DNA of 64,000 bases from Gemmatimonadaceae bacterium. Its GTDB lineage: Bacteria; Gemmatimonadota; Gemmatimonadetes; Gemmatimonadales; Gemmatimonadaceae. Of this stretch, positions 33,817 to 62,235 are shown piece after piece. The notes beneath the pieces were generated by a model. That model saw only the letters and a list, made by a program, of their open reading frames with translations, was not told the DNA's origin and made no database searches. Location of the stretch: contig JABAQJ010000006.1 of NCBI GenBank assembly GCA_019186945.1, positions 186,001 through 250,000 of the forward strand, given 5' to 3'. The position numbers and the translations under genes were made by a program. Each line of letters starts with the position of its first letter. Positions within the stretch are counted from its first letter, which is position 1.

Positions 33817-34458
33817 TCACATCCCTGTGGCGATGCGGGATCCAGCGGCGGCATCGGCGAGGGCGCGCGAACTCACCTCGAGACCCAGCGTCCATGCCAC
33901 CCGATGCGCGTCGGCCGTTTGCGATCTGGCCTGGCCCTCGATCGCCGAGCGGAGGTACTCGCTGTCGAAGGGAAGTCGACCACTGCCAGCGAGGAGGCCA
34001 GCCATTACCGTGCCTAACAAGCGAAGTCGGGCGGCGTGGATGGCGAGGGCGCTGGCGTCGACCGCCACCACGTGAGGCGCAACCAGCCGCAACCGCTCGA
34101 CAATGGACGCAACGTCGGGGTAGGGGCTCTGCCGCAACGTCTGGCCTGAAGGAACTATCGGTCTGGTGTTCACCAGCACGATGCCGTCGCCGCTCACGCG
34201 TGGGAGCGCCCGGGCCGCCTCCAGCGGCTCGAACGCCAGCAGAACGTCGGCCTCTGCCGCCGAGACGAAGGCCGTCTGGGCCACCCCGACGCGCACGGTG
34301 GCCTCCACGCTCCCTCCGCGCTGGGAAAGGCCGTAGATCTGCCCCACGCGCACGGGAACACCGGCCGCGACTGCCGCTGTGCCGATCGCCCTCGCCAGGG
34401 TCAGCACGCCCTGACCCCCAATGCCAGCCAGCAGAACGTTGCATCTGCTCATCGTCAT
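33817..34458 (-). CDS. iorB: Indolepyruvate:ferredoxin oxidoreductase beta subunit
   Basis: 213 residues from an ATG at 34458 that overlaps the iorA stop. It is the gamma-type domain of 2-oxoacid oxidoreductases: LLAGIGGQGVLTLARAIG at the start, then GLSQRGGSVEATVRVG. It pairs with the IorA-like chain upstream to convert an arylpyruvate, CoA and ferredoxin to arylacetyl-CoA and CO2. The IorA/IorB type usually prefers indolepyruvate or phenylpyruvate. Confidence 0.9.
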   Translation of the reverse strand: MTMSRCNVLLAGIGGQGVLTLARAIGTAAVAAGVPVRVGQIYGLSQRGGSVEATVRVGVAQTAFVSAAEADVLLAFEPLEAARALPRVSGDGIVLVNTRPIVPSGQTLRQSPYPDVASIVERLRLVAPHVVAVDASALAIHAARLRLLGTVMAGLLAGSGRLPFDSEYLRSAIEGQARSQTADAHRVAWTLGLEVSSRALADAAAGSRIATGM

Positions 34459-42313: not shown

Positions 42314-43584
42314 GCACTGCGTTGAAGGACCGTTCCATGCTCCTGCAGAAGGAGATGATCGCCAGCCACTTCGCGCGGCTCGAGCGCGCCCCGGAGAACA
42401 AGGAGCCGGTGGTCTACACCTTTGTCCCAGGCAACCTGGTGGAGCTGATCCGCTCGTTCGGCGCACTACCAGTGCTTCCCGAAATCAACGCGCTGCAATC
42501 GGGAATGCGGAAGCAGTCGGGCGACTACATCGCCGAAGCGGAGCGCGTGGGACACTCCGAGGACGTGTGTGCCTACGTGAAGAGCGACATCGGCATGCTG
42601 CGCTCCGGCAACATCGGACCGGCGGGAACGAAAATCCCGAAGCCCGACCTGCTGCTGCTGTCGTACACCGGGTGCTACACGTTCATGAAGTGGTTTGAGC
42701 TGCTGCGCGAGGAGTACGATTGCCCCGCGGTGTTTTTCCACGTGCCGTACCAGGGCGACGGTGTGCTGGAGCCCGAGCACCGCGAGTACATGCTGCGACA
42801 GCTCCGTGAGCAGGTCATTCCCGCCCTGGAGAAGGCCACGGGGCGTGCCTACGACGAGGAGGCGTTGCGCGAGCGGCTGACGCTGGCCGCCGAGGCCGAA
42901 GACCATCTTGTCGCTGTTCTTCAATCGGCGAAGCACAGGCCGAGCCCGATCGATGGCTACTTCGGTACGGTCTATTACGTGGGACCGCTCTTCAGCGCGT
43001 TCCGCGGAACGCCCGAGGGGGTGGAGTACTATCGCACCCTTCGCGAGGAAGTCGAGGAGCGTCTCGCCGCGGGCCTGGGGCCTGTGACGCCGGAAGGGCA
43101 GCTGAACGACCAGAAGTACCGTCTGGTGGTGGAAGGGCCGCCGAGCTGGACCCACTTCCGCGAGTTCTGGAAGATGTTCGCGGACGAGGGGGCGGTCGTC
43201 GTGGCCTCCACCTACACGAAGGTTGGCGGCACCTACGATTTCGGGTTCCGTCACAATCCGAACGATCCGCTGGGCACGCTGGCCGATTATTGCAGCGGGT
43301 GCTACACGAATCTGAACCTCCCGTCGCGCATCGACATGCTGGTGCGCTACATCCGGGAGTATGAGGCTGACGGTTTTCTCATCAACTCCGTCAAGTCGTG
43401 CAATTCGTTTTCCGCGGGGCAGCTGATGATCCTGCGTGAGGTGGAGAAGCGCACTGGGATTCCGGGCGCCTTCGTCGAATCCGATCTCGTGGACCCACGC
43501 TACTTCTCCAGCGCGAACATCAAGAACCGTCTCGAGAGCTACTTCCAGATGATTCAGGCGCGGCGCGTTGGGGGACTCGCATGA
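42310..43584 (+). CDS. bcrB: Benzoyl-CoA reductase subunit BcrB
   Basis: 424 residues, coupled to bcrC by ATGA. Cluster cysteines at the expected places: C87 in [15 protein letters not shown]122 in [15 protein letters not shown] and C364 in [12 protein letters not shown]. Two further Cys lie at 328 and 331. Central motifs are [13 protein letters not shown] and [11 protein letters not shown]. It is the partner of BcrC in the dearomatising core. The inferred physiological substrate here could be benzoyl-CoA or 2-aminobenzoyl-CoA made by the upstream indole pathway; the sequence alone cannot tell. Confidence 0.92.
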
Positions 43585-44855
43585 GTTGCGTGGTGGGCAT
43601 CGATCTGGGTTCGACCACCACGAAAGCCGTGGTGCTCGACGAGGACGGTCAGGTGCTGGGTCGCGGGATAACCAATTCACGCTCGAACTACGATCTCGCG
43701 GCGGCGGTGGCGCGCACCGAAGGCTTCATCAATGCGCGCTTCGGCCTGATTCAGCAGCGCCTGGAGCAGACCGGCGGCGCCGAAGGTGTCGGACGGTTAC
43801 GCCGCGCCTTCGTGATGGAGCAACTGCTTCACCAGCTGCGCCGTCTCGAGCAACTGATGCTCGAAGAAGTCGAGCGTTCGGCGCCGGCACACGTCAAGCA
43901 GCCGTTTTGCGGTGCGCTCCGCGAGATCTGCCGGCGGATCACGGAAGAGGAAGAGCAGCGCTTCCGTCAGCCGCCGATCCTGCGCTCGGACTTCTTCCGC
44001 GATGCGGCCGGTTCGGCGTTCATGCGCATCGCCGAAGAGGTCGCCGATCCGCTGGGTGGCGTCAGCTTCGACCGACTGGTGGGCGTGTACGACAAGTGCA
44101 TCATTCGAGTGGAGAACGAGCCTCTCGATCTCGACTTCCGCGATCACATTGGCGACGCGCTCAAGCGCCTCGACAACCCGCCCGGACTCACCGACGCGGT
44201 TGACTACGCGGCGTCCAGGGATCTGACGCCAGCCACAACCGTTGGCACAGGCTACGGTCGTGCGCGTCTTCCGTTTCCCAAGGAGCAGATCCGCTCGGAA
44301 ATCCTGTGTCATGGCCTCGGGGCACACGCCATGTTTCCGGAGACGCGCACGGTGCTCGACATCGGGGGACAGGACACGAAGGCGATCCAGGTTGACGAGA
44401 ACGGAATCGTCACGAGCTTCCAGATGAACGATCGGTGTGCGGCTGGGTGCGGGCGGTACCTCGGCTATATCGCCGACGAAATGAATCTCGGGCTGCACGA
44501 GTTGGGGCCGCTGGCGGAACAGTCGCGACGGACGGTGAAGATCAACTCGACCTGTACGGTCTTTGCCGGCGCCGAGTTGCGCGAGCGATTGTCGTTAGGC
44601 GAGAAGCGGGAGGATATCCTCGCTGGCCTCCACCGCGCCATCGTGATTCGCGCGATGAGTCTCCTTGCCAGATCCGGCGGTGTGTCGGACCAGTTCACTT
44701 TCACCGGTGGCGTGGCGAAGAACCCGGCGGCCGTGCGGGCGATCCGCGAGCTGGTGCAGGAGAACTACGGCGACCGGCAGCTCAACATCTCTCCCGACAG
44801 CATCTACACTGGCGCGCTTGGCGCGGCGCTCTTCGCAAGACGGATGGTGGCCTGA
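43581..44855 (+). CDS. bcrA: Benzoyl-CoA reductase ATPase subunit BcrA
   Basis: 424 residues. ASKHA ATPase with phosphate-1 motif [15 protein letters not shown], phosphate-2 motif [12 protein letters not shown] (from D260) and [12 protein letters not shown]. The shared [4Fe-4S] ligands are C286 in [13 protein letters not shown] and C325 in [12 protein letters not shown] long insert (about 35-215) separates the first two motifs, as in true BcrA and unlike the shorter HgdC activators. With BcrD it couples ATP hydrolysis to low-potential electron transfer from ferredoxin. ATGA overlaps on both sides. Confidence 0.93.
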
Positions 44856-45709
44856 TGCATATCTCTGCCGGTATCGACGTTGGCAGCGGCGCGGTAAAAG
44901 CGGTGGTGATGCGTACCGACGGCCGCGAAGAAGAGACGATCCTGGGAAGCGCGTCGTCCCGGATCCGGCGCCGCGAGGTGGACAAGGTACTCGACGAGGT
45001 CTTCGCGACCGCCGTGGAACAGGCGGGAGTGGATGTCATCCATTACGTGGCCACCACGGGCGAGGGAGCGGAGTTCTCCTGGGCAACCGGGCACTTCTAC
45101 GGCATGACGACACATGCCCGCGGCGCGCTCTATCTGGCGCCACAATCTCGCGCGGTGCTCGATGTCGGTGCGCTGCACACCCGTGCTGTGGCGATGGACG
45201 AGCGCGGGCGCGTGGTGGACTACAAGATGACCAGTCAGTGCGCCTCGGGGTCGGGACAGTTTCTCGAGAACATCGCACGCTACCTGGGCGTGTCGCACGA
45301 CGAGATTGGTCCGCTGTCGCTGCAGGCAGGTCAGCCGGAGAAGGTGAGTTCCATCTGTGCGGTACTGGCGGAGACAGACGTGATCAACATGGTGTCGCGC
45401 GGCATCACGACGGCGGATATCCTGCGCGGCGTGCACGAGAGCATGGCTGACCGATTTGCGCGTCTGCTGCGATCGCTGACGTTCGACGGTGCGGTGTTCG
45501 TCAGCGGTGGTCTGGCCTCGGACGTGGGCATGCTGGGCGCGCTGCGCGATGCGCTCGCGAAACGGACGGCGGCGGGTGGTGGAGCGCCCGAAGTAGTCAC
45601 GCACGACACCGCGATCTTTGCCGGAGCGATCGGCGCTGCGCTCTGGGGCGGCTATCGATACCGGAAGATCGGGCAGGGCGGCGTGGCGTGGACGGCGAAG
45701 GCGGCATGA
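44855..45709 (+). CDS. bcrD: Benzoyl-CoA reductase ATPase subunit BcrD
   Basis: 284 residues. Phosphate-1 motif GIDVGSGAVKAVVM. The phosphate-2 site has the BcrD-type form LDVGALHTRAVAMDERG rather than DIGGQD. Cluster ligands are C129 in TSQCASGSGQFLENI and C168 in SSICAVLAETD. It forms the heterodimeric electron activase with BcrA. It starts one base inside the bcrA stop (TGATG). This completes an apparently functional bcrCBAD set. Confidence 0.92.
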   Translation: MHISAGIDVGSGAVKAVVMRTDGREEETILGSASSRIRRREVDKVLDEVFATAVEQAGVDVIHYVATTGEGAEFSWATGHFYGMTTHARGALYLAPQSRAVLDVGALHTRAVAMDERGRVVDYKMTSQCASGSGQFLENIARYLGVSHDEIGPLSLQAGQPEKVSSICAVLAETDVINMVSRGITTADILRGVHESMADRFARLLRSLTFDGAVFVSGGLASDVGMLGALRDALAKRTAAGGGAPEVVTHDTAIFAGAIGAALWGGYRYRKIGQGGVAWTAKAA

Positions 45710-50240: not shown

Positions 50241-51452
50241 ATGCAGTTTGAGAACGCATGGATTCCCAGAGGGGGATACTGGTCCACGCCCTTTTGCGCC
50301 TGGCAGGGGAGTTTTGCCTCGCTGCCGCCGATTCCGTTTGCGGCAGAGACGGCGCGACGTGCGCTTGCGGAGCGTGGCGTTGAGGCGGCGGAGATCGACG
50401 GTTTGTGTCTGGGCACCACGGTGCCGAGCAAGCACTCGTTCTACGGTGCGCCATGGTTTGCTGGCCTCGCTGGACTGGCGCACGCGACCGGTCCCACCAT
50501 AAGCCAGGCGTGTGCCACTTCCGTGCGGTGTCTGGTGCAGGCCGCTCAGGAACTCTCGTTAGGTACAGTCGGCTCGTATCTGGCGGTAGCGAACGATCGC
50601 ACGAGCAACGGTCCCCACGTCTACTACCCGGCGCCTGATGGTATTGGTGGCACAGGCGAGTCGGAGAACGTGGTGCTCGACAGCTTCGGGTACGATCCCT
50701 GGGCGCGCAACTCGATGCTGGAGACTGCGGAGAACGTGGCGAAAGCGGCGGGGATCGGGCGCGATGCGCAGGAGGAGATCGCGTTGTTGCGCCACCGTCA
50801 GTATGGCGATTCGGTCAGGGACGGTGCTTTCCAATCCCGCTACCTGGTGCGGCCCGTGGAGGTGAGGGATGCACGTGGGAAGCGCGTGCTGGCCACCGTG
50901 ACAGGCGACGAGGGCGTGCATCCGACGACGGCGGCTGGTCTGGCAGCGCTCAAGCCTGTGCTGCCCGGGGGAACCGTCACGTTCGGCACGCAGACGCATC
51001 CGGCAGATGGCAATGCGGGGATCCTGCTCGTGAATAGTCGCGAGCGGGCACGGGCGATGTCGCGCGGGGGAGCGGCCGACGTGCGGCTCGTGTCTTTCGG
51101 GCAGGCGCGTGTTGAAGCTGGACACATGCCTCGCGCCATCGTTCCGGCGTCGCAGCTGGCGCTGCGGCGCGCCGGGATCGGCGCGAAGGATCTCGAGAGC
51201 GTAACGACACACAATCCGTTCGCCGTGAACGACGTGGTGCTTGCCAGGGAGCTGCGCCTCGATCCCGAGCGGATGAATAGGCATGGTTGCTCGCTGGTCT
51301 GGGGTCATCCACAGGGACCGACCGGGTTGCGATCGGTGATCGAGTTGATCGAGGATCTGGTAGAGCGAGGAGGTGGGTACGGGTTGTTCACCGGGTGCGC
51401 GGCCGGCGACAGTGCGGCGGCCGTGGTGCTGCGAGTGGACATCCCTGGCTAG
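50241..51452 (+). CDS. Thiolase-family acyltransferase
   Basis: 403 residues. GGAGG lies 4 nt before the ATG. Active-site Cys is C91 in ISQACATSVRCLVQAA. The His is in TTHNPFAVND, and the second Cys is in FTGCAAGDSAAAVVL; GHPQGPTG is the usual GHPxGxxG motif. It should cleave a 3-oxoacyl-CoA with CoA. Candidate reactions are 2-aminobenzoylacetyl-CoA to 2-aminobenzoyl-CoA plus acetyl-CoA at the end of the indole pathway, or 3-oxopimelyl-CoA thiolysis after ring opening. A beta-ketothiolase is part of the known indoleacetate cluster. Confidence 0.9.
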   Translation: MQFENAWIPRGGYWSTPFCAWQGSFASLPPIPFAAETARRALAERGVEAAEIDGLCLGTTVPSKHSFYGAPWFAGLAGLAHATGPTISQACATSVRCLVQAAQELSLGTVGSYLAVANDRTSNGPHVYYPAPDGIGGTGESENVVLDSFGYDPWARNSMLETAENVAKAAGIGRDAQEEIALLRHRQYGDSVRDGAFQSRYLVRPVEVRDARGKRVLATVTGDEGVHPTTAAGLAALKPVLPGGTVTFGTQTHPADGNAGILLVNSRERARAMSRGGAADVRLVSFGQARVEAGHMPRAIVPASQLALRRAGIGAKDLESVTTHNPFAVNDVVLARELRLDPERMNRHGCSLVWGHPQGPTGLRSVIELIEDLVERGGGYGLFTGCAAGDSAAAVVLRVDIPG

Positions 51453-51487: not shown

Positions 51488-52444
51488 ATGGAGTACTTCC
51501 CCTCGAAGGAGGCCGGCGGCTTCGGCTTCACCGACATCCTTTACGAGAAGCGGGATATGGTGGCCCGGATCACGATCAACCGGCCGGATGCCTACAACGC
51601 GTACACGACCGACACGCTTCGGCAACTGATCGCGGCGTTCGAGGATGCCTCGAACGACGACGGCGTCGGAGTCATTGTCTACAGCGGCGCCGGCGAGAAG
51701 GCGTTCTGCACCGGCGGCGACGTGAAGGAATACGCGGCGGTGTACACGAAGCGCCCTCGCGACTACTGGAAGTACATGGGTCTGTTCAGCCGGTATATCG
51801 AGGCGATCTTCCGAAGCGGGAAGGTCACGATCGCGCGAATCAACGGGATCGCCGTGGGCGGCGGCAACGAGTCGCAGCTCGCGTGCGATCTGGCGGTGAT
51901 GGCCGACGATACGTGGTTGGGGCAGGTGGGAACGAACGTGGGGAGTGTTGCTGCTGGCGGTGCCACGCAGTGGCTGTCCATTCATGTGGGCGATCGGCGG
52001 GCGCGTGAGATGCTCTTCCTCAATCCGAAGATCCCGGCGGCACGGGCGCTGGAGTGGGGTCTGGTGAACCGCGTGGTGCCGCGCGCCGCGCTCGACGACG
52101 AGGTGAACTCGCTCTGTCAGCAGGCGCTCGAGAAGTTCCCGGAATGCACGCGGTATACCAAGCAGCAGTTGAACTACTGGAAGGAGGCGGCGTGGTTCGG
52201 CACAATCGGGCACGCACGCGACTGGCTCTCCACGCATTTCACGACGTTGGAGCCGTACGAGGGGATGCAGGCGTTCGTGGAGAAGCGCAAGGTGGACTTC
52301 GCCGGGTTGCGCCAGCGCGCGGCGTCCGGTGGCAGTTCCGAGTTCCTATGGGGACCGTATGCCGGCGAGTGCGGCAAGTGCGGGGCGACGGGAATCCCGC
52401 AGGACTTCGCTTTCTGCGGACGCTGCGGCACGGCGCTGGGCTGA
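51488..52444 (+). CDS. oah: Oah/BamA-like ring-opening hydrolase with C-terminal zinc ribbon
   Basis: 318 residues, GAGGA 8 nt upstream of ATG. Crotonase fold with the specific 6-oxocyclohexene-carbonyl-CoA hydrolase pattern: YTTDTLRQLIAAFEDASND, KAFCTGGDVKEYAAVY, GGGNESQLACDLAV and LGQVGTNVGS. It is some 60 residues shorter than typical BamA, lacking the central insertion. The last 25 residues form a zinc-ribbon-like tail with Cys 295, 298, 310 and 313. It is inferred to add two waters to 6-oxocyclohex-1-ene-1-carbonyl-CoA and open the ring to 3-hydroxypimelyl-CoA. A MenB- or BadI-like hydrolase is the alternative. Dch and an SDR follow directly. Confidence 0.75.
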   Translation: MEYFPSKEAGGFGFTDILYEKRDMVARITINRPDAYNAYTTDTLRQLIAAFEDASNDDGVGVIVYSGAGEKAFCTGGDVKEYAAVYTKRPRDYWKYMGLFSRYIEAIFRSGKVTIARINGIAVGGGNESQLACDLAVMADDTWLGQVGTNVGSVAAGGATQWLSIHVGDRRAREMLFLNPKIPAARALEWGLVNRVVPRAALDDEVNSLCQQALEKFPECTRYTKQQLNYWKEAAWFGTIGHARDWLSTHFTTLEPYEGMQAFVEKRKVDFAGLRQRAASGGSSEFLWGPYAGECGKCGATGIPQDFAFCGRCGTALG

Positions 52445-52482: not shown

Positions 52483-53232
52483 ATGACGGCAACGCTGGCC
52501 GGGCAGGTGGCCCTCGTCACTGGCGCTGGGCGCGGCATCGGTGCCGCGATCGCGTGCGAGCTGGCGGAGCGGGGATGCGACCTCGGTCTCGTGGACGTTG
52601 ACGCCGCGGGCGGGCTGAACGGCGTTGCCGAAACGGTGCGCTCTGGCGGCCGGCGAGCGCTGGCGATGTCAGCGGACGTGACGAGCATGACGGCGGCCGA
52701 GGCGAACGTGACAGCGGTCATCAGGGAACTCGGCCGTCTCGACATCCTCGTCTGTTGCGCCGGAATTACGCGCGACGCAGTCGTCTGGAAGATGTCGGAA
52801 GAGGCCTGGGATACGGTCCTGGCTGTGAACCTCAAGGGCTGCTTCACTTATTGCAGGGCAGCGGCTCCTGTATTGCGCGGCCAGCGGCGCGGACGGATCG
52901 TGACGATCGCATCCATCAACGGGATGCGCGGCAAGGCGGGGCAGGCCAACTATGCGGCATCGAAGGCAGGGGTGATTGCGCTGACGAAGACCCTGGCGCG
53001 CGAACTGGGACCGTCGGGAGTGACTGTGAACTGCATCGCGCCAGGCTTCATTCGTACGGCAATGACTGCCGTCCTTCCGGAAGCGATCGTGGCCGGGGCC
53101 ATTGCCGAGACCGCGTTAGGCAGGCTGGGCGATCCGGAGGACGTGGCCCGGACGGCGGCGTTCCTCTGCTCGGAAGGGGCGCGTCACATTACCGGCGAGA
53201 TCATCAAAGTGGACGGAGGACAGTACCTGTGA
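52483..53232 (+). CDS. Short-chain dehydrogenase (FabG-like)
   Basis: 249 residues, classical SDR. The cofactor motif TGAGRGIG is at 13-20, with an Asp-rich VDVD at 37-40 suggesting NAD preference. NAG-equivalent is CAG at 92-94. The catalytic triad is S144, Y157 and K161. Ends with DGGQYL. It likely oxidises a 3-hydroxyacyl-CoA such as 3-hydroxypimelyl-CoA, or a ring alcohol, in the steps around Oah and Dch. It overlaps the dch start by 4 bp (GTGA). Confidence 0.85.
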   Translation: MTATLAGQVALVTGAGRGIGAAIACELAERGCDLGLVDVDAAGGLNGVAETVRSGGRRALAMSADVTSMTAAEANVTAVIRELGRLDILVCCAGITRDAVVWKMSEEAWDTVLAVNLKGCFTYCRAAAPVLRGQRRGRIVTIASINGMRGKAGQANYAASKAGVIALTKTLARELGPSGVTVNCIAPGFIRTAMTAVLPEAIVAGAIAETALGRLGDPEDVARTAAFLCSEGARHITGEIIKVDGGQYL

Positions 53233-54011
53233 CGGTCGAGAGCACGCTCCCTGGCCCGGTGCGCTACGAGGTGCGCGACAGTGTCGCGTGGCTCACGCTG
53301 GACGCGCCGCCCGTCAACCTGCTCACGGCGGCGGTCATGCAGGATCTCACCGACGCGGTCGCGCGTGCGCAGGAGGACGATTCCCTCGTGGCAATCGCGC
53401 TCACCGCCCGGGGCCGCGCGTTCTCTGCCGGGGCGGATGTGGGCGAGCACCGACCGGAGCAGGCGGCCGGGATGATTGGCGCGTTCAGCGCGCTCTTTCG
53501 TGTGCTGGGCGGCAGTGCGCTGCCGCTGGTAATGGCGGTGGACGGTCCGGCTCTCGGTGCCGGATTTGAACTGGCGATGATGGCAGACATCCTGCTGGCG
53601 AGCGATCGCGCGACCTTCGGCCAGCCAGAAATCCGGCTCGGCTTCTTCGCACCGGTGGCAGTGGCGTGGCTGCCGAGCCGCGTGGGAGTGGCGCGAGCGA
53701 TCGAGATCACGGCCACGGGTCGCACGTGGACCGCCGCCGAGATGCAGGGCTTTGGCCTCGTTTCACGCGTGGTTACGAGTGAAACGCTGGGTGAGGCGGT
53801 GGACTACGTTCTTGCCGATATGCGGCGTGCGAGCCCGCTGGTGATGCGAATGAACACGCGACTCGTGCGCAGCCTGGCTGGCCGGCCGTTCGAAGAAGCG
53901 CGGCTCGAGGCCGAACGCGTGTTTCTCGACGACCTCATGCGCACCGAAGACGTGCGTGAGGGCATCGCATCATTTTACGAGAAGCGGCGTCCTCAATGGA
54001 CGAACAGGTGA
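53229..54011 (+). CDS. dch: Cyclohexa-1,5-diene-1-carbonyl-CoA hydratase (Dch)
   Basis: 260 residues from a GTG overlapping the SDR stop. Crotonase family with the Dch-like segment AFSAGADVGEHRPEQAAGMI. The ring-substrate region ALFRVLGGSALPLVMAV and GAGFELAMMADILLA follow, then FGQPEIRLGFFAPVAVAWL. Both crotonase Glu positions are present. It should hydrate the diene produced by benzoyl-CoA reductase to 6-hydroxycyclohex-1-ene-1-carbonyl-CoA, the substrate of Had at the end of this operon. The alternative is a general enoyl-CoA hydratase, but the context favours Dch. Confidence 0.82.
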   Translation: MTVESTLPGPVRYEVRDSVAWLTLDAPPVNLLTAAVMQDLTDAVARAQEDDSLVAIALTARGRAFSAGADVGEHRPEQAAGMIGAFSALFRVLGGSALPLVMAVDGPALGAGFELAMMADILLASDRATFGQPEIRLGFFAPVAVAWLPSRVGVARAIEITATGRTWTAAEMQGFGLVSRVVTSETLGEAVDYVLADMRRASPLVMRMNTRLVRSLAGRPFEEARLEAERVFLDDLMRTEDVREGIASFYEKRRPQWTNR

Positions 54012-54044: not shown

Positions 54045-56321
54045 ATGCGGATCCTGATCGTCGGAGCCGGAGCTTTGGGCGGTCTGGTGGGCGCCAGCCT
54101 GACGCGAGCGGGTGCCGACGTAACGCTGCTCGAGGAAAACGCGGCTCGCGCGATGCTCCTCAACGAGGCTGGCCTGCAGATCTCCCAGCAGGGCCAGGAG
54201 GAGGTTCGTATTCGCGTGCACGTCGTCACGACTCTCGAGGGTGTGCAGCCGTTCGACCTCGTGTTCATCGCCGTCAAGACGTACCAGACGGAATCCGCGG
54301 TGCGCGAGGTGCTGCCGGCGACCGGTACGCAGACGTGGTTTCTCTCCATGCAGAACGGCATCGGCAATGCGGAAACGATCGCGTCTCTGGCCGGACCGGA
54401 GCGTGTGCTCTGCGGCATTACGTATCACAGTATTCAGCATGCCGGACCTGGGCGCTTGCAGTATCGTGCAGGAATCAAGCCGATCCAGATCGCGCCGCTG
54501 ACGGGCGGTATCACGCCGGAAATCGAGGCGATCGGGGCGTTGTTCCGCAGCGCTGGCCTGGACACCAACGTGGTCCCCAACATCGACCATACCGTCTGGC
54601 AGAAGCTGCTCCACAATGCGGTAGTGAACCCGACGTCGGCGGTGACTGGTCTGACGTGCCGGCAGATGCTGGCCGACGAGGACCTGATGTCCTTCATGCG
54701 CGATCTCTGCAACGAGATCGTGGCGGTGATGCGAGCTCGCGGCGTGCCGATCGTGGACGAAGAAGACCCGTTTCGCCCTGTCGTCGGATCCCTCAAGGCG
54801 CTCGGGAAGAACCGTCCCTCGATGTGGCAGGATCTGTCGCGCGGAATGCGTACCGAGGTGGATGCGTTGAACGGCGCTATCGTCGCCGAAGCTCACCGGC
54901 TCGGGCTGCACGCGCCGCATAACGAGGCGCTGGTGCACTTCATTCATTCACGAGAGCGGCAGACGTTCCTGTACAAGCAGGAGATTGCGCGGCGTTTGGG
55001 GCTTGATACCAAGGCGACGGTTCAGACAGGCGCGGCCGGCTCGCGCCGCACGGCGCCGCGTGGCGAGGATTCCGGAATGCCGTCGGGCGGTCCGCCGCTC
55101 GAGAGCACTCGGCGGCTGAAAGAACTGATGCATGCCTACTACGTCGACCTCCAGCAGGCTTCGCACGACCCAGACCGTCTTGTTGCTGCCTGCTCCGGGC
55201 TCGCGCCGGTAGAGATCGTGCGCGCATTGGGCATTGCGCCGTACTTTCCTGAGAACCACGCCGCACTCATTGCCGCCGGACGTCAGGCAGCACCCTACCT
55301 GGCGAGAGCCACGGCCGAGGGCTTTTCGCAATTCGCCAGTTCGGCAATGCGCACGGACATCGGTGCGCTACTGGAGGGAAGCAGTCCGCTTGCTGCCGCA
55401 CACGGCATCGAGGGTCCGCCGCCACCCGACGTGGTGGTCTACAGCACCAACACCGGCCACCAGTTGCTGCGGTGGTTCGAGTTCTATGGAACGCATTTTG
55501 GCATTCCCGTGGTGGGCCTTCATCCACCGCCCGCGTTGGGCGAGCTCGAGCGCATCGACGTGGACGCATCGGTGCATCAGTTGCTGCGACTCGTGGATCG
55601 ACTCGAGGGCGTTGCGGGCCGGTCGATGCCGTTCGATGGCCTTGCCGACGTCGTTTCGAACACGCGCAAGGCCGCAGCGCTCTGGCGCGAGATCCTCGAA
55701 TTGGCACGCGCCACACCGGCCCCATTCACGTTCTTCGACGCACTCATCCACGTTGCACCGATGATCCTCCTGCGGGGGACGCCGGAAGCGGTAGACTACT
55801 ACCGGCTGCTGAAGTCGGAGGTGGAGGACCGGATTTCCCGTGGGATTGCCGCTGTGCCGCACGAGTCGTACCGATTTTATTGGGACGGGCCCCCGATCTG
55901 GTGCGGCCTGCGACCGTTGGCGCGTCTGTTTGCCACCAAGGGCGTCGCGGTCGTGGCTTCCACCTTCTGCAGCGTGTTCGCGCTTTCCGGTCTGGACGAG
56001 GATAACCCGATCGAGAGCATGGCGCGCGCTTACACGGGCGTTTTCGGCAATCGGTCGGAGGGGTACAAGACCGCCTATCTGTCAGAGAGATTCGGGGCCT
56101 ATGGCGTGGACGCGGCAGTATTCCACGATTGTCGTACGACGCCGGAGGCGAGCCATGTGCGGTATGGGCTGGCACGGCGCGCGCAGCGTCTTACCGGTGT
56201 TCCGGCGCTCGTCATCGAAGCCGACTCGCATGACGTACGTCTGTTCAGCGCCGAGAGGCTGGAGACGCTGCTTGGCGAGTTTCTCGAACAGCATCTGGAG
56301 CACGTCGGAGCGGCCGTATGA
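54045..56321 (+). CDS. PanE-type dehydrogenase fused to cluster-deficient BcrB-like domain
   Basis: 758 residues, strong AGGAGG 6 nt before ATG. Residues 1-310 are ketopantoate-reductase-like: Rossmann motif ILIVGAGALGGLVG, catalytic Lys K187 in WQKLLHNAVVNP and Glu E271 in RTEVDALNG. A Gly/Pro/Ser-rich linker (about 325-352) leads to a BcrB/HgdB-type domain (355-755). Compared with the adjacent 57134-58366 protein, which keeps C83 and C121, this domain has Ser in FSQFASSAMRTDIG and Gly in STNTGHQLLRWFEF. Only C696 (FHDCRT) remains of the likely three cluster ligands. PanE relatives can reduce 2-oxoacids to D-2-hydroxyacids, the substrate type of 2-hydroxyacyl-CoA dehydratases. Function otherwise unknown; I know of no described protein with this fusion. 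Confidence 0.88.
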   Translation: MRILIVGAGALGGLVGASLTRAGADVTLLEENAARAMLLNEAGLQISQQGQEEVRIRVHVVTTLEGVQPFDLVFIAVKTYQTESAVREVLPATGTQTWFLSMQNGIGNAETIASLAGPERVLCGITYHSIQHAGPGRLQYRAGIKPIQIAPLTGGITPEIEAIGALFRSAGLDTNVVPNIDHTVWQKLLHNAVVNPTSAVTGLTCRQMLADEDLMSFMRDLCNEIVAVMRARGVPIVDEEDPFRPVVGSLKALGKNRPSMWQDLSRGMRTEVDALNGAIVAEAHRLGLHAPHNEALVHFIHSRERQTFLYKQEIARRLGLDTKATVQTGAAGSRRTAPRGEDSGMPSGGPPLESTRRLKELMHAYYVDLQQASHDPDRLVAACSGLAPVEIVRALGIAPYFPENHAALIAAGRQAAPYLARATAEGFSQFASSAMRTDIGALLEGSSPLAAAHGIEGPPPPDVVVYSTNTGHQLLRWFEFYGTHFGIPVVGLHPPPALGELERIDVDASVHQLLRLVDRLEGVAGRSMPFDGLADVVSNTRKAAALWREILELARATPAPFTFFDALIHVAPMILLRGTPEAVDYYRLLKSEVEDRISRGIAAVPHESYRFYWDGPPIWCGLRPLARLFATKGVAVVASTFCSVFALSGLDEDNPIESMARAYTGVFGNRSEGYKTAYLSERFGAYGVDAAVFHDCRTTPEASHVRYGLARRAQRLTGVPALVIEADSHDVRLFSAERLETLLGEFLEQHLEHVGAAV

Positions 56322-56345
56322 GGCGCGAACGTAGGGAGGATGGGC

Positions 56346-57137
56346 ATGATGCCTGACGAGCGAGCGCGTGTGGTAGCAGGCGTGGACGCGGGCACGGAGT
56401 GCGTCAAGGCGGTGATTGTTGGTGCTGGCGGGCGTGTGGAAGGGCGCGCGGTCGCACCGACGCGCGGCTATTTCCAGGCATGCGTCTACGAGGTTCTGTC
56501 CGCCGCGCTCGACGACGCCCAGCGCACAGAGAGCGATCTAGCCGGCATCGGCGCGACGGGATTCGCCATGGGGTGCGTGCCGGGGGCGACGCTCACCGCT
56601 ACCGATGCGGCGTGCCACGCTGCCGGCGCCTACCACCTGATCGGCCAACGCATGACGCTGGTGAACATCGGCGGGCGCGATCCGCACCTGATCGCAGTCG
56701 CGCTCGATGGCCGCCGAGCCGATGCGCGCAACGTCCGGCGTTGCGCGGCTGGAGTCGGGAGTTTCCTGATGTTCACGGCGCGCCATCTCGACGTGCTGCC
56801 AACGCGCCTGCAGGAATTGGCGTCGGTTGCGGACAAGCCGGCAGCGGTCAGCAGCTATTGCTCGGTGTTCTCGTCAACCGCGATCCTCGAACGCCTGCGC
56901 GAGGGCGCGTCGCGCGAGGAGATCGCGTTAGGGGCCATGCACTCGATCGCCGAGCGTATCGTGGAACTCGGCGGCTTCGAAGACCCAGTGTATGCATGCG
57001 GCGGCGTCGTCGAGTACTTCCCGGGTGTCGTCCGCGCGCTGCAGACACTTCTGGAGAGGGAGGTCCGTACCGTGCCCGATCCGATCTTCACCGGTGCCCT
57101 GGGCGCAGCGCTCAAGGCAATGGAGCTGGCGACATGA
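56346..57137 (+). CDS. BcrD/HgdC-like activator ATPase with degenerate phosphate motif
   Basis: 263 residues. The ATG at 56346 is chosen because AGGGAGG ends 6 nt before it; an ATG at 56340 abuts that site. ASKHA fold: GVDAGTECVKAVIVG. The phosphate-2 site reads VNIGGRDPHLI, so the usual Asp of DIGGQD is Asn. Cluster cysteines are kept: C133 in RRCAAGVGSF and C172 in SSYCSVFSST. It resembles BcrD in having an altered phosphate motif and may pair with the intact ATPase at 58363-59235. It overlaps the next gene by 4 bp. Confidence 0.85.
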   Translation: MMPDERARVVAGVDAGTECVKAVIVGAGGRVEGRAVAPTRGYFQACVYEVLSAALDDAQRTESDLAGIGATGFAMGCVPGATLTATDAACHAAGAYHLIGQRMTLVNIGGRDPHLIAVALDGRRADARNVRRCAAGVGSFLMFTARHLDVLPTRLQELASVADKPAAVSSYCSVFSSTAILERLREGASREEIALGAMHSIAERIVELGGFEDPVYACGGVVEYFPGVVRALQTLLEREVRTVPDPIFTGALGAALKAMELAT

Positions 57138-58366
57138 CTGGACCCGCGCTCTCCAGCACTGCAACACTGCGTGAGACGATGGGCTCGTACTACCGCTCCC
57201 TCGGCGATGCTGACACCGCGCCCGTTGCCTGGTGCTCGAGCGTTGGGCCGGCCGAGCTGCTGCGAGCCCTGGGCTATCGCGTCTTTTTTCCAGAGAACCA
57301 CGCCGCAATGCTCGGCGCGGCGCGTACCGCCAACCGCGTGATGCCCATCGCACACGCGCAGGGCTACTCGCAGGACATCTGCTCGTACCTGACCAGCGAC
57401 ATCGGTGCGTACCTTGCCGGCGAGACGCCTCTGAAAGCGTATGGGCTGACGAGCGTCCCGAGAGCGGATGTGCTCGTGTTCAACACGAACCAGTGTCGCG
57501 ACGTCCGGGACTGGTTCGAGTGGTACGGTCGCCAGTGGGACGTTCCGGTGATCGGTGTGCGATCGCCGAGGAGCATCGACACCGTCACCGATGACGACGT
57601 CGAGGGCGTGGCGCGACAGATCGAGGCGCTCGTGCCCACGCTCGAAGCAGTCTCTGGCGCTCGCCTGGATGGAGCGCGTCTCGCCCAGGTGGTCGCGATC
57701 TCGCGCGAATGTTCCCATCTCTGGGGGGCATGCCTTGGTACGGCAGCCGCGCGTCCTGCGCCGTTCACGTTCTTCGACGGCACCATTCAGATGGGCCCGG
57801 CGGTCGTGCTGAGAGGCATGGAAGAGGCGTGCGCCTATTACCGATCGTTGCTCGCGGAGCTGGAGGAGCGTGTGCGCACTCGGGTCGCGGCTGTGCGCGG
57901 CGAGTCGCTGCGCCTGTACTGGGATGGCATGCCTCTGTGGGGACGATTGCGTGCGCTGGCGACGAACTTCGCCGAGTTCGGCACGGCGGTGGTGGCGTCT
58001 ACATACTGCAACAGCTGGATCTTCCCGGACCTGGATGCGGACGATCCCATCAGGTCCATGGCTCGCGCGTCTCTCAATCTCTTCATCGCACGATCGGAAG
58101 AACCAAAGGAGCAGTACATCGAGCGGATGGTGCGCCAGTTCGACGTCGACGGCATCGTCTTCCACGATTGCCGCACATGCCCCAACAACTCGAACACCCG
58201 CTACGCCATGCCGCAGCGTTTGTCGAAGCGCCTCGGGATTCCCTCGCTGGTGCTCGACGGCGATGTCAACGATCTGCGGTGTTACTCCGACGAGCAGGGT
58301 CGCACCAACATCGAGGGTTTCGTCGAACAACTCGCCGACACGCGGGCGAGCCGACGTGGCGCATGA
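57134..58366 (+). CDS. BcrB-like reductase/dehydratase subunit with intact cluster ligands
   Basis: 410 residues, coupled by ATGA on both sides. Likely [4Fe-4S] cysteines are C83 in QDICSYLTSDIGA, C121 in TNQCRDVRDWFEWYG and C346 (with C349) in FHDCRTCPNN. Other motifs are SLRLYWDGMPLWGRLRAL and VVASTYCNSWIF. It is clearly homologous to the second half of the 54045-56321 protein (PENHAA, YYR, YWDG.P.W, FHDCRT shared) and more distantly to BcrB at 42310. It is probably the redox-active partner of a heterodimer with the fused protein. Substrate could be an aroyl-CoA or an aryl-2-hydroxyacyl-CoA. Confidence 0.88.
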   Translation: MTGPALSSTATLRETMGSYYRSLGDADTAPVAWCSSVGPAELLRALGYRVFFPENHAAMLGAARTANRVMPIAHAQGYSQDICSYLTSDIGAYLAGETPLKAYGLTSVPRADVLVFNTNQCRDVRDWFEWYGRQWDVPVIGVRSPRSIDTVTDDDVEGVARQIEALVPTLEAVSGARLDGARLAQVVAISRECSHLWGACLGTAAARPAPFTFFDGTIQMGPAVVLRGMEEACAYYRSLLAELEERVRTRVAAVRGESLRLYWDGMPLWGRLRALATNFAEFGTAVVASTYCNSWIFPDLDADDPIRSMARASLNLFIARSEEPKEQYIERMVRQFDVDGIVFHDCRTCPNNSNTRYAMPQRLSKRLGIPSLVLDGDVNDLRCYSDEQGRTNIEGFVEQLADTRASRRGA

Positions 58367-59235
58367 CTCTCATGCGATACTACGCGGGGATCGATAGCGG
58401 ATCGTGGACGACAAAGGCCGTCATCATCGATGCTGACGGGGGGGTGCTCGGCACGGCGGTGAAGCGCTCCGGGGCAGATCTTGCCGTGGCGGCACGCCAG
58501 GCGTACGATGCGGCGTTGGCACGGGCGGACGTCCCAGCCGGGGATATTGTCGCGGTGTGGTCCACAGGCTTCGGACGCCACAATGTGGAGTTCGCGAACG
58601 GATCGCGCACGGAACTCGACTGCCACGGACGCGGCGTCGCGCACTACGTACGCGGTCCCGTTACCGTCGTGGACATCGGCGGCCAGGATGCGAAAGTCAT
58701 CCGGCTCGACGCCGGCGGACAGCGTGTGGCGCATCGCATGAACCGGAAGTGCGCCGCCGGCACGGGGAGCTTCCTCGACGAGATCGCGCTCCGGTTAGGC
58801 GTCGAGACCGGTGCGCTCGACGGTCTCGCAGCGGAATCTGCCGAGACGTTGGAGCTGTCGAGTTTCTGCACTGTCTTCGCCGGAACAGAGTTGCTTACGC
58901 TCATCCGCTCGGGAAAGCGGCCGGCAGATCTGGCGATGGCCGCCTACCGATCGCTGGTGAAGCGCGTCCAGGCGATGGAAGTCTTCCACGGCGCGATGGT
59001 GGCGACGGGTGGCGTGGTGGCGCACCATCCGCGTGTCGTGAGCCTGCTGCGCGAGGCGACGGGAGGAGAGGTGGTGGTGCCTCCGCATCCCCAGGAGATG
59101 GGCGCATTCGGCGCGTCTCTCGCCGCCCGTGACGGAGCCGTGGCGGTGGGCGATGCGCTGGATGCGCACGGGAACGGGGACGGGCGTGAGGCCAGCGCGG
59201 CGACAGGCGTCGGGAGTCGTCAGGATGTCGGCTGA
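58363..59235 (+). CDS. BcrA/HgdC-like activator ATPase (intact)
   Basis: 290 residues. Intact ASKHA motifs: GIDSGSWTTKAVIID, WSTGFGRHNVEF and VVDIGGQDAKVIRLD. Cluster cysteines are C130 in NRKCAAGTGSFLDEI and C169 in SSFCTVFAGTELL. It has the short HgdC-like length, without the long BcrA insert, plus a Gly/Ala-rich tail of about 35 residues. It should deliver ATP-driven electrons to the 57134-58366 subunit. The next gene starts inside its 3' end. Confidence 0.88.
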   Translation: MTLMRYYAGIDSGSWTTKAVIIDADGGVLGTAVKRSGADLAVAARQAYDAALARADVPAGDIVAVWSTGFGRHNVEFANGSRTELDCHGRGVAHYVRGPVTVVDIGGQDAKVIRLDAGGQRVAHRMNRKCAAGTGSFLDEIALRLGVETGALDGLAAESAETLELSSFCTVFAGTELLTLIRSGKRPADLAMAAYRSLVKRVQAMEVFHGAMVATGGVVAHHPRVVSLLREATGGEVVVPPHPQEMGAFGASLAARDGAVAVGDALDAHGNGDGREASAATGVGSRQDVG

Positions 59236-61144
59236 GGGCCGCGTCGACGATGGCGTCGAGGCCACTATGCGCCACGCAGGGGCAGCGGTGCGCGAGGGAA
59301 ACATGATCTTCTCGCGCCTCCAACCGTTAGGCGCACGCGAGAGCATCGGTGGGATGCTTTCGCGCAATGGCGAGCGGTTCGCCGGACTGCCGGCATTCCG
59401 CGAGCGCCGTGGTGGAGCCTTGCGGACCATCACCTGGGACGCGCTGCTGTCTGACGTGGAGGCCTTCGCGAGGTTCCTGTCCATGCGGGGCGTCCGCGCC
59501 GGCGATCGCGTCGCCGTGATCTCGCCGAACCGTGGCGAGATGCTGGTGGCCGAGTTCGCAACCATGGGGCTCGGGGCGATCTACACTCCGATCTTTTCCG
59601 GCTACGCCGCCGAGCAGCTTCGATTTCTCGTGACCCACGCCGAACCCGTGGCCCTCCTGCTTGCGTCGCCAAGCCAGCTCCCACACCTCGGTGTGCTCCC
59701 GTCCGTCCGTGTCGTGGTCACGTTCGAGGCAGGTGCCATGGAACCCGTCGCCAACGCGTCAGGGGCGCCAGCGGTCTGGTACAGTGACGCGATTCGCGAA
59801 GGCACGTCGGATGCCGGTGCTCGGCGTGATATCCAGGAGTGGCTTGGCGAAGCCAGTGCGGTGGATCCGGATTCGCCAGCGCTGATGATGTATACCTCGG
59901 GGACCAGCGGCCCGCTCAAGGGCGTGCTGCTCTCGCACGACGCCATCCTGTCACAGCAGCGCGCGCTGTCGGCCATCTGGGACGTCACGCCCGCAGACCG
60001 ATTGCTGTCGTACCTCCCATGGCACCACAGTTTCGGCGGCATCTTCGAGAAGTACACGGCACTGTATCGCGGCGCCGTGCTCTGCATAGACGAATCGCTG
60101 GGCAAGGACTTCGGCACGTTATTGCGAAACTGGATGGAGGTCCGACCGACGATCTACTTCAGTGTGCCCAAGATCTATCAGCAGCTCATGGCGCACACGC
60201 AGCTGCACCCCGAGGACGGACCTCTCGTTTTTCATGAAGGGCTGCGCTTTGTCTTCACGGCAGCCGCGCCGCTGCCGGCCGGCGTCTCGTCATTCTTCGC
60301 GGCCAGGAGGATTCCGGTGTTGGAGGGTTGGGGACTCACGGAGACCGCTCCGTGCTGCACGTTGACGGACATGAACGAGCCGCGAACCGTACCGGGACTC
60401 ATCGGCTATCCCATTCCAGGGGTCACTGTAGCCATCGCTGGGGACGGTGAGATCCTGGTTCGCGGACCCAACGTGATGACGGGTTACTTCCGGAATCCCG
60501 ATGCCACCGCGCGTGCGCTTCCGGGCGACGGGTGGTTTCATACCGGGGACCTTGGCGAATTGGCGGGCAATGCGCTTCGCCTCGTGTCGCGAAAGGACCG
60601 CGTATTCAAGATGCTCAATGCAGAGAAGGTGATTCCTACCATAATCGAGAATCGCCTGGCAGGGATGAATCCGTACATCAGGCACGCGATAGTGGTTGGA
60701 AGCGGCCAGGATTTCCTGGCAGCGCTGATCTTCCCGGATTATTTCCGGATCCGCGAGGAGTTCGGAGACGACAACGCGAGAGCGGAAGCGACCGTGAAGG
60801 CATCCTTGCGCGATACCGTGCTGGCCTTCAACCGCGAGCATGAAGTGAAGTACGAGCGCCTTCAGGCGTTTGTCGTGGTGAGCAAGGAACTCACCATCGA
60901 GGAGCAGGAGCTGACACCATCGCTCAAGGTGCGGGTGTCCAACGTGCTGGAGCGCACCGGTCAGTACGTAGAGGCAGTGTTCGAGCCGCATGCTGGGTGC
61001 GATTGCCGGTTCCTGCGTCAGGTGATGCGGCTGGCGCCGGACGTGCGAACCTGCTTTGCGGGACTGCCCCGCACACTCGACGCGTGCCACGAGTGCGGCC
61101 ACTTCGTCTTCGGTGACTCGCCGGGGACTGCAGCAACTACCTGA
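59225..61144 (+). CDS. AMP-forming acyl-CoA ligase with Cys-rich C-terminal tail
   Basis: 639 residues from an ATG at 59225, overlapping the ATPase gene by 11 bp; an upstream in-frame start at 59129 is possible. The ANL-family P-loop is YTSGTSGPLKGVLLSHDA. Next come LPWHHSFGGIFEKYTALYRG, LGKDFGTLLRNWMEVRPTIYF and the A5 motif EGWGLTETAP. The hinge HTGDLGEL and Lys-containing tail are complete. The pattern is nearer long-chain acyl-CoA synthetases than benzoate-CoA ligases. The last about 50 residues add CDC, C and CHEC cysteines that could bind a metal. It may activate indoleacetate, an aromatic acid or a diacid. It is the only CoA ligase in the window. Confidence 0.87.
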   Translation: MSAEGRVDDGVEATMRHAGAAVREGNMIFSRLQPLGARESIGGMLSRNGERFAGLPAFRERRGGALRTITWDALLSDVEAFARFLSMRGVRAGDRVAVISPNRGEMLVAEFATMGLGAIYTPIFSGYAAEQLRFLVTHAEPVALLLASPSQLPHLGVLPSVRVVVTFEAGAMEPVANASGAPAVWYSDAIREGTSDAGARRDIQEWLGEASAVDPDSPALMMYTSGTSGPLKGVLLSHDAILSQQRALSAIWDVTPADRLLSYLPWHHSFGGIFEKYTALYRGAVLCIDESLGKDFGTLLRNWMEVRPTIYFSVPKIYQQLMAHTQLHPEDGPLVFHEGLRFVFTAAAPLPAGVSSFFAARRIPVLEGWGLTETAPCCTLTDMNEPRTVPGLIGYPIPGVTVAIAGDGEILVRGPNVMTGYFRNPDATARALPGDGWFHTGDLGELAGNALRLVSRKDRVFKMLNAEKVIPTIIENRLAGMNPYIRHAIVVGSGQDFLAALIFPDYFRIREEFGDDNARAEATVKASLRDTVLAFNREHEVKYERLQAFVVVSKELTIEEQELTPSLKVRVSNVLERTGQYVEAVFEPHAGCDCRFLRQVMRLAPDVRTCFAGLPRTLDACHECGHFVFGDSPGTAATT

Positions 61145-61155
61145 AGCCTGCGAGA

Positions 61156-62235
61156 ATGGATGCCATGAACGACGCCGCGTGGAACGCATGGATGATGACG
61201 GCGCCTGGCGGGCCGCTGGAGCGCCGTACGCTAGCGCCCGTCGTTCCAGGTGCTGGCGAGGCGACCGTGGAGGTTGCGGGCTGCGGGGTGTGTCACACCG
61301 ACGTGTCGTTCCTGCGGCACGGCGTGAAGACCCGCGGTTCGCTGCCGCTGGTGCTGGGTCACGAGATCAGCGGCATCGTCAGGGACGTTGGCGACGGTGT
61401 GGACCGATCGCTCGTCGGAGTACCGGTGATCGTGCCGGCGGTGCTGCCATGCGGCACCTGCGATCTCTGTGTCGCTGGGCACCGCTCCATCTGTCGCCGG
61501 CAGGTGATGCCTGGTAATGACAGGCATGGAGGGTTCGCGTCGCACGTGACGGTGCCGGCGCGCTATCTCTGCCGGGTGAACGACGAGGTGCTCTCGACGC
61601 ATCAGCTGTGGGAGCTGGCGGTGGTTTCGGATGCGGTGGCAACTCCGTTCCAGGCCGTCCGGAACTCCGGACTGGCGCCGGGCGAACTGGCGGTGGTGGT
61701 CGGTGTTGGCGGAGTAGGCGTGTACGGCGTGCAGGTGGCCGCGGCCGCTGGCGCGCGCGTCGTGGCGCTCGACCTCGATGACCGCAGACTCGACCAGGCG
61801 CAGCGGGCGGGCGCACATGCGGTCTTCAACGTGCGCGACGTCCCCGCCAAGGAAGTGCGCAAGCAGGTAAAGGGCGCTGCCGACGCCTTAGGCGCTCCTC
61901 CCCATCTGTGGAAGATCTACGAGATGTCCGGGACTCGCGGAGGGCAGGAGACAGCGTTCGGGCTCCTGGGGTTCGGCGCTTCGCTTGCGGTCGTCGGGTA
62001 CACGATGGATCGGGTAGAGGTGCCGCTGTCCAATCTGATGGCATTCGAAGCCACGGCGCGCGGGAACTGGGGCGCCGATCCACTCGTGTACGGCGACATG
62101 TTGCAGTGGATTGGCGCCGGCCGCCTAACGCTGAAGCCGTTCGTGGAACGGCACGCGCTGCGCGAGATCAACGCCGTATTCGAGGATGCGCACCACGGCC
62201 GACTCCTGAAACGAGCGGTGATGGTACCCGACTGA
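61156..62235 (+). CDS. had: 6-hydroxycyclohex-1-ene-1-carbonyl-CoA dehydrogenase (Had)
   Basis: 359 residues, zinc-type medium-chain alcohol dehydrogenase. Catalytic zinc region VAGCGVCHTDVSFLRHGV with C43 and GHE at 68-70. Structural zinc cysteines are C99, C102, C105 and C113. Rossmann motif GVGGVGVYGVQVAAAAGA. Segments WKIYEMSGTRGGQETAFGLLGFG and NAVFEDAHHGRLLKRAV match my recollection of Had from denitrifying benzoate degraders, which oxidises the Dch product to 6-oxocyclohex-1-ene-1-carbonyl-CoA with NAD. Last gene of the rightward operon, 11 bp after the ligase. Together with bcrCBAD, Dch and the Oah-like enzyme it completes the upper benzoyl-CoA pathway. Confidence 0.87.
   Translation: MDAMNDAAWNAWMMTAPGGPLERRTLAPVVPGAGEATVEVAGCGVCHTDVSFLRHGVKTRGSLPLVLGHEISGIVRDVGDGVDRSLVGVPVIVPAVLPCGTCDLCVAGHRSICRRQVMPGNDRHGGFASHVTVPARYLCRVNDEVLSTHQLWELAVVSDAVATPFQAVRNSGLAPGELAVVVGVGGVGVYGVQVAAAAGARVVALDLDDRRLDQAQRAGAHAVFNVRDVPAKEVRKQVKGAADALGAPPHLWKIYEMSGTRGGQETAFGLLGFGASLAVVGYTMDRVEVPLSNLMAFEATARGNWGADPLVYGDMLQWIGAGRLTLKPFVERHALREINAVFEDAHHGRLLKRAVMVPD

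Follow-up and report, generated by a model that had tools for sequence, protein, structure and literature searches.

A four-gene block of Gemmatimonadales with a PanE-fused, cluster-less large subunit: a candidate one-cluster radical dehydratase carrying its own 2-oxoacid reductase

We analyzed a window of 64,000 nucleotides (positions 186,001 to 250,000 of contig JABAQJ010000006.1) from the genome of a Gemmatimonadaceae bacterium (GCA_019186945.1; 3.95 Mb), and in it a block of four genes, g1 to g4, at 54045-59235. The first gene encodes a PanE-type (ketopantoate reductase-type) dehydrogenase fused to a large subunit, LSU1, of the benzoyl-CoA reductase/2-hydroxyacyl-CoA dehydratase (BCR/HAD) superfamily; the others encode an ATPase (act1), a second large subunit (LSU2) and a second ATPase (act2). 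Their frames, order and Pfam domains agree with the first-pass annotation, made from the sequence alone, which had proposed either a second aryl-CoA reductase or a dehydratase of 2-hydroxyacyl-CoA supplied by a 2-oxoacid reductase domain of its own. The latter fits best: with a probability of about one half, we consider the block to encode a one-cluster radical (R)-2-hydroxyacyl-CoA dehydratase-like enzyme that carries its own 2-oxoacid reductase, a new architecture for which only candidate substrates can be named. As the annotation had supposed, no described system of this composition was found in NCBIfam, PDB or open-access papers (subscription papers were outside the search).

Cluster ligands of the two large subunits

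The [4Fe-4S]-OH2 cluster of BzdO, a class I BCR subunit, is ligated by Cys95, Cys128 and Cys380 (PMC11971306). The equivalent residues of LSU2 (Cys83, Cys121 and Cys349) are kept in 13 of 13 sequences, while LSU1 has S/N, G/S and T/A/S at the three positions (motifs from 19 copies). All three cysteines are gone from every Gemmatimonadales copy of LSU1 checked, and one of the three is retained only in the copy from an Acidobacteria metagenome-assembled genome (MAG). This loss, which the first-pass annotation did not mention, leaves one predicted cluster site in the large-subunit pair. The ratio of non-synonymous to synonymous substitution rates (dN/dS) of LSU1 is 0.03-0.22 for close pairs, similar to that of LSU2, demonstrating purifying selection; the domain is therefore maintained, and these values, together with many invariant residues, rule out a decaying pseudogene. 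LSU1 and LSU2 always co-occur.

A precedent for cluster loss in a dehydratase partner subunit is the HgdB-type beta subunit of Fusobacterium vincentii (L126:6213-7361), with Y/D/N at the three cluster positions. It is encoded within an intact glutamate-fermentation operon of the glutaconate pathway, hgdCAB, which by its sequence also encodes a glutaconyl-CoA decarboxylase and a glutamate symporter (the flanking frames were named from our own reading of the sequence). The Fusobacterium 2-hydroxyglutaryl-CoA dehydratase HgdAB, to which this subunit belongs, resembles the block in being a one-cluster enzyme whose partner lacks all three cysteines; unlike LSU1, HgdB belongs to the beta clade, and HgdAB has a single activase, HgdC, and no fusion. 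None of the sampled BCR beta subunits has lost a ligand, all keeping CCC, and the block has no beta subunit of the BcrC/BzdN/MbdN type, as class I BCRs have, its LSU1 being devoid of cluster cysteines. Taken together, the loss in Fusobacterium, its absence from the sampled BCR beta subunits and the lack of such a subunit in the block favor a one-electron, redox-neutral mechanism.

The missing ligands would also agree with LSU1 being a mere assembly scaffold and the PanE:LSU1 protein a moonlighting or regulatory fusion, with LSU2 acting as a homodimer or pairing with BcrC of the adjacent bcr operon; in most genomes bcrC is part of the same operon, and the related protein DCCP is a homodimer (PMC11971306). 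We regard this as improbable, given the constant co-occurrence of LSU1 and LSU2 under purifying selection, the invariant catalytic residues of the PanE domain (see below), and one locus (L060) in which the neighboring BCR is of the Mbd type, so that BcrC is no constant partner.

Origin of the large subunits and ATPases

The large-subunit tree comprised 84 HGD-D sequences, including HadBC, BzdNO, MbdON, DCCP, BcrBC, the Fusobacterium and Proteus pairs and aerobic plasmid HADs; supports are FastTree SH values. Every reference heterodimeric pair consists of one alpha and one beta member, the exception being LSU1/LSU2, which are both alpha-type and sisters (0.999), in line with the earlier remark that they are closest to each other. 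Their clade groups with HadB, BzdO and the aerobic HADs (0.95), outside BcrB+MbdO (1.0). By this topology LSU1 and LSU2 are not orthologs of BcrB and BcrC, the alpha-type LSU1 does not correspond to the HadC/HgdB-type (beta clade) partner that HADs have, and the block is not placed inside an ordinary dehydratase operon family.

The two ATPases are also sisters (0.999), apart from BcrA/MbdQ, BcrD/MbdP and HadI/HgdC. They form a clade of their own, while class I BCRs are defined by ATPases orthologous to BcrA and BcrD; such orthology is ruled out by the tree, and the labels "BcrD-like" and "BcrA-like", given to g2 and g4 in the first-pass annotation, fail as statements of ancestry. In act2 the motifs are intact (GIDSGS, DIGGQDAK, CAAGTG, SSFC), and GGQDAK is found in all orthologs. 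The GQD motif of act1 is altered, reading NIGGRDPH here instead of DIGGQDxK, with GGGDPH, GGHEPQ and GARDPR among the forms in orthologs; the cluster-bridging cysteine motifs are kept in both proteins. In place of the homodimeric activator with intact motifs typical of HADs, the block thus appears to have two paralogous activases, one with a changed signature. MbdP shows a similar change (DIGGQT), which, combined with the separate clades, suggests that the BCR pair and the act1/act2 pair became asymmetric independently.

Since sisters are seen in both trees and the gene order agrees, one large-subunit-plus-ATPase unit was probably duplicated. On this reconstruction LSU2 and act2 kept all motifs, LSU1 lost the cluster ligands, act1 lost the GQD signature, and LSU1 was fused to PanE. 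The class I BCRs BcrCBAD, BzdNOPQ and MbdONQP (PDB 8S02, 9G87, 9GAI) also have two large subunits and two diverged ATPases encoded by four genes in a ring-degradation operon, but the duplications in the block are independent of theirs, an [8Fe-9S] subunit of the BcrC/BzdN type is missing, the active-site residues differ and the PanE fusion is added. DCCP and its reductase (6ENO, 7YYL), of the same superfamily, represent an ancestor-like pairing of identical subunits with an ATPase; DCCP is a homodimer with [8Fe-9S] in both subunits, whereas one subunit of the block is cluster-less.

LSU2 compared with HadB and with benzoyl-CoA reductases

The block combines an HGD-D large subunit with a BadF/BcrAD ATPase, as members of the BCR/HAD superfamily do. 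LSU2 scores 199 bits against the HadB model, 123 against BcrB (cut-off 487) and 77 against BzdO (cut-off 449). In the HadB/HadC comparison LSU1 reaches 148 bits, both subunits remaining below the equivalog cut-off of 750; LSU2 also lacks the combination of equivalog score and clade membership that marks BcrB, BzdO and MbdO of class I BCRs. The best PDB sequence match of LSU2 is HadB (3o3m_A, 4e-49), 23 orders of magnitude ahead of MbdO (4e-26), and HadB is the top Foldseek large-subunit match for low-confidence models of both LSU1 and LSU2. At the position of HadB Ser37, LSU2 has Ser (Ser36) in 13 of 13 sequences, as in the HadB group, while BcrB has Pro and MbdO-type proteins Met or Ala; the alignment leaves BzdO Ser44 outside this column, so the position parts LSU2 from BcrB and MbdO, not securely from BzdO. 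HadB Glu55 corresponds to Glu54, also in 13 of 13, a Glu being universal across the alpha clade. LSU2 thus has the whole set expected of a HAD alpha subunit, the three cluster cysteines and the Ser/Glu pair. The position of the catalytic His131 of BzdO (active-site roles from PMC11971306) is occupied by Val, as in HadB; this residue is unusable for telling BCRs from HADs, being absent from BcrB and MbdO too.

(R)-2-Hydroxyisocaproyl-CoA dehydratase, HadBC with HadI (PDB 3O3M-3O3O, 4EHT), is one of the nearest known systems, LSU2 being closest to HadB, and further shares with the block an ATP-dependent activase and a sequence of reactions in which an (R)-2-hydroxyacid dehydrogenase acts first. 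It differs in that the partner in the block is a second alpha-type, cluster-less subunit and not HadC, the activase is a diverged paralogous pair, the dehydrogenase is PanE-type and covalently fused, and the operon serves aromatic degradation and not amino-acid fermentation. Judged on sequence, the block has neither all defining features of HADs nor all those of class I BCRs and is a variant within the superfamily.

These data weaken the proposal of a second dearomatizing aryl-CoA reductase, which would act on a substituted benzoyl-CoA through a catalytic dimer with one cluster. The shared superfamily, the ATPase pair, asymmetric as in BCRs, and the constant position of the block beside ring-degradation genes, mostly beside bcrCBAD, speak for it. 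BzdN, however, holds an electron-storing [8Fe-9S] cluster for the two-electron reduction (PMC11971306), while HADs recycle one electron and act on (R)-2-hydroxyacyl-CoA (PMC8473912). All sampled reference BCR pairs are alpha plus beta with all aligned cluster cysteines, while the block has a single cluster site and is without an electron-storing beta subunit, an absence that makes a reductase less likely; moreover, the active site and the scores are HadB-like, the large subunits group with HadB and BzdO, and the PanE domain would be left without a role. We therefore consider a second aryl-CoA reductase distinctly unlikely.

The PanE domain

Residues N104, K187, N191, N195 and E271 of the PanE domain are invariant in 19 of 19 copies; they correspond to N98, K176, N180, N184 and E256 of the Escherichia coli enzyme, which we take to be catalytic. 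A Ser or Thr occupies the position equivalent to E. coli Ser244. Together with the ApbA and ApbA_C domains, the Rossmann motif GxGxxG and a TIGR00745 score of 258 bits (cut-off 141), this Asn/Lys/Asn/Asn/Glu set assigns the domain to the PanE family. Identity to 3HWR/5HWS is 31%, and fold matches of a low-confidence model include ketopantoate reductases, with D-mandelate dehydrogenases (3WFI, 8WL1) among the close ones; the fold therefore covers 2-oxoacids other than ketopantoate. The domain differs from known family members by its fusion to HGD-D and by an acidic residue, E30, where the second Rossmann strand ends (in 16 of 18 copies), a weak hint that the cofactor is NAD(H) and not NADP(H). 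PanE-type enzymes yield (R)-2-hydroxyacids, the enantiomer used by HADs.

Proposed mechanism and its substrates

In the proposed mechanism PanE would reduce a free 2-oxoacid to the matching (R)-2-hydroxyacid, and the acyl-CoA ligase encoded next in the operon (lig) would make its CoA ester. Together, act1 and act2 would form an asymmetric dimer around a bridging [4Fe-4S] cluster and, driven by ATP, deliver one electron to the [4Fe-4S] cluster of LSU2, the only one in the large-subunit pair; LSU1 would be the structural half of this pair and the tether for PanE. The electron would turn the thioester carbonyl of the bound 2-hydroxyacyl-CoA into a ketyl, the alpha-hydroxyl would depart, and the return of the electron to the cluster would complete a redox-neutral dehydration to 2-enoyl-CoA. 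The enoyl-CoA could then be processed by a hydratase, a short-chain dehydrogenase and a thiolase, for example from aryl-pyruvate through aryl-lactate, aryl-lactyl-CoA and cinnamoyl-CoA to benzoyl-CoA, which would pass to BcrCBAD, had and oahL (Table 1). The corresponding genes ech, sdr, thl and lig share the operon with the block, which supports this scheme. The product probably feeds benzoyl-CoA, the choice of substrate being the weakest step. The amino-substituted ring, indole-lactate and aryl-pyruvate substrates suggested in the first-pass annotation found no direct support. In other genomes the upstream genes that had prompted them, IOR among them, do not accompany the block.

Several points weigh against a dehydratase. 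In having an asymmetric pair of ATPases the block resembles BCRs, whereas the characterized activators of HADs are homodimeric and keep their motifs intact; grouping with BzdO in the alpha clade does not, on the tree alone, exclude ring reduction; and the AlphaFold models are of low confidence (pLDDT, the predicted local distance difference test, 64 and 59.5) and were used for fold matching only. The conserved operon contains no CoA-transferase, the usual source of 2-hydroxyacyl-CoA. Finally, the tightest conserved neighbors are the ring-stage genes oahL, ech and had, which a side-chain dehydratase leaves unexplained, and canonical 6-oxocyclohex-1-ene-1-carbonyl-CoA hydrolase (Oah) is absent from genomes with the block, which hints at a ring-stage role.

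Distribution, synteny and a possible ring-stage role

The search for the fused architecture found full-length g1 in about 17 of the 288 Gemmatimonadales genomes (63-73% identity, two families; one genome has two copies). A peptide-pattern scan of 85,000 species, which detects close relatives only, found the fusion at nine loci of Gemmatimonadota and in one MAG of Acidobacteria. The single open frame in all these Gemmatimonadales genomes and in the MAG rules out an assembly artefact or a frameshift. The carriers are soil and sediment Gemmatimonadota, with the block inside an anaerobic benzene-ring-degradation operon. Wherever the contig extends, the order is bcrCBAD-hcrB-hcrCA-tetR-thl-oahL-sdr-ech-[g1-g4]-lig-had, flanked by a fadB-type gene and a gene that we read as hemerythrin-like. 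Every block genome with a long enough contig has oahL in the operon; ech upstream and lig downstream are conserved, ech also in L046 and L060. At L060 (G090:C853) the block, oahL, ech, lig and had adjoin an Mbd-type BCR in place of bcrCBAD, with no thl or sdr nearby, and L046, the Acidobacteria MAG, has ech-block-lig-had on a contig that begins at ech. One genome (G127; L048 and L049) has two diverged copies of the entire bcr and block operon.

This synteny could point to an enzyme of the ring stage: block and oahL would replace the canonical Oah route, the radical enzyme and PanE processing an alicyclic CoA ester that BcrCBAD, ech and Had supply, either ahead of the ring opening by oahL or in the course of it. 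Canonical Oah scores above the cut-off in 0 of 17 genomes with the block and in 9 of 12 without it, all having canonical Had (Fisher p 2e-5, uncorrected for relatedness), and oahL, ech and had remain the closest conserved neighbors even beside the Mbd-type BCR of L060. On the other hand, the loss of Oah and the gain of the block may merely share ancestry, and oahL, a divergent homolog with the C-terminal motif of Oah, may by itself catalyze the entire Oah reaction, with no task left for the block; oahL may simply be the Oah replacement. The same motif in the alignment makes it less likely that oahL is a BadI-type hydrolase. We know of no alicyclic intermediate of the pathway that has a 2-hydroxyacyl-CoA group or needs ATP-driven reduction. 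A ring-stage role is thus unlikely, if worth keeping in view, and the side-chain dehydratase is preferred.

A search of a plasmid collection yielded only relatives at no more than 28% identity. Separately, HGD-D pairs with one activase were seen on plasmids from two aerobes, Sphingopyxis macrogoltabida and Rhodococcus ruber, and from Azoarcus sp. KH32C (L123, L124, L125), adjoining SDR (short-chain dehydrogenase), CaiB or acyl-CoA dehydrogenase genes.

Features of the locus

The block is, as proposed earlier, a second system parallel to bcrCBAD: a separate, complete class I BCR is recognized by four equivalog models in the same syntenic run (Table 1). Within the block, g1 and g2 are separated by 18 bp, the start of g3 overlaps the stop of g2, and the start of g4 that of g3. 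The g1 linker is weakly conserved.

Table 1. The four-gene block and its neighbors in the window
Feature	Position	Strand	Description
g1	54045..56321	+	758 aa; PanE/ketopantoate-reductase-type dehydrogenase (residues 1-306), linker (~307-352), cluster-less alpha-type HGD-D subunit LSU1 (~353-758); Pfam ApbA + ApbA_C (1-303) and HGD-D (387-749) above cut-offs
g2 (act1)	56340..57137	+	265 aa; ASKHA-type ATPase/activase; Pfam BcrAD_BadFG, NCBIfam CoA_E_activ above cut-off
g3 (LSU2)	57134..58366	+	410 aa; intact alpha-type HGD-D subunit; Pfam HGD-D
g4 (act2)	58363..59235	+	290 aa; ATPase/activase; Pfam BcrAD_BadFG
bcrCBAD	41135..45709	+	class I benzoyl-CoA reductase; TIGR02263, TIGR02260, TIGR02259, TIGR02261 above equivalog cut-offs
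thl	50241..51452	+	thiolase, same operon; Pfam + synteny
oahL	51488..52444	+	short crotonase-fold Oah homolog, Cys-rich tail; TIGR03200 190 bits (cut-off 464)
sdr	52483..53232	+	short-chain dehydrogenase, same operon; Pfam + synteny
ech	53229..54011	+	enoyl-CoA hydratase/dienoyl-CoA hydratase-like, directly upstream of g1; TIGR03189 143 bits (cut-off 292)
lig	59267..61144 (start uncertain: 59225, 59267 or 59303)	+	AMP-forming acyl-CoA ligase, directly downstream of block; Pfam AMP-binding
had	61156..62235	+	6-hydroxycyclohex-1-ene-1-carbonyl-CoA dehydrogenase (Had), final gene of conserved run; TIGR03201 equivalog 419 bits (cut-off 339)

The products of oahL and lig both have C-terminal Cys-rich, zinc-ribbon-like tails, unusual in both families. 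A search for benzoate-CoA ligase, aimed at assigning lig, gave 0 matches above the cut-off in 10 genomes. At 45725-49530 (hcrB/hcrCA), a fused gamma-alpha protein scores 929 bits against the 4-hydroxybenzoyl-CoA reductase alpha model (cut-off 995); since the beta-type subunit scores only 114 bits (cut-off 404), it may be without the reductase-specific beta insert and the enzyme may run as a hydroxylase. Farther upstream, 34455-37907 encodes a 1150-aa fusion of IOR-alpha, a GltD-like NAD(P)H oxidoreductase and a ferredoxin domain, with iorB at 33817; the regions flanking the block in other genomes yielded no equivalent of this fusion. Nor did those genomes show the upstream IOR, mutase, xdh2 and caprolactamase genes next to their blocks, and the IOR, mutase and caprolactamase genes were dropped as a pathway clue for this reason. 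Elsewhere in the same genome, a further BcrAD_BadFG domain lies within a 726-aa open frame (G000:C9:36707-37501; L004, L064), unrelated to the block.

Significance

With slightly less than even confidence, we propose that the block encodes a heterotetrameric radical machine that evolved independently of benzoyl-CoA reductase and converged on it. It would derive from a duplicated alpha-type subunit-plus-ATPase unit, one half of which became cluster-less and covalently tethers an NAD(P)-dependent dehydrogenase. A single complex would then carry out both an ATP-driven ketyl-radical step and the reduction of a 2-oxoacid (or a hydride transfer at the ring stage), giving Gemmatimonadota an undescribed path into, or through, their anaerobic benzoyl-CoA pathway. 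It would be a second, independent way of building a catalytic dimer with a cluster-less paralog, every other BCR/HAD pair compared being alpha/beta, and would covalently pair a radical enzyme with a hydride-transferring dehydrogenase. The block allows one to ask whether the partner cluster is dispensable and how one cluster receives the ATP-driven electron. The anaerobic aromatic metabolism of Gemmatimonadota is almost unstudied; here the block flags genomes without the usual ring-opening hydrolase and lets one ask whether alpha-dehydration brings aryl-2-oxoacids into the benzoyl-CoA pathway in this phylum.

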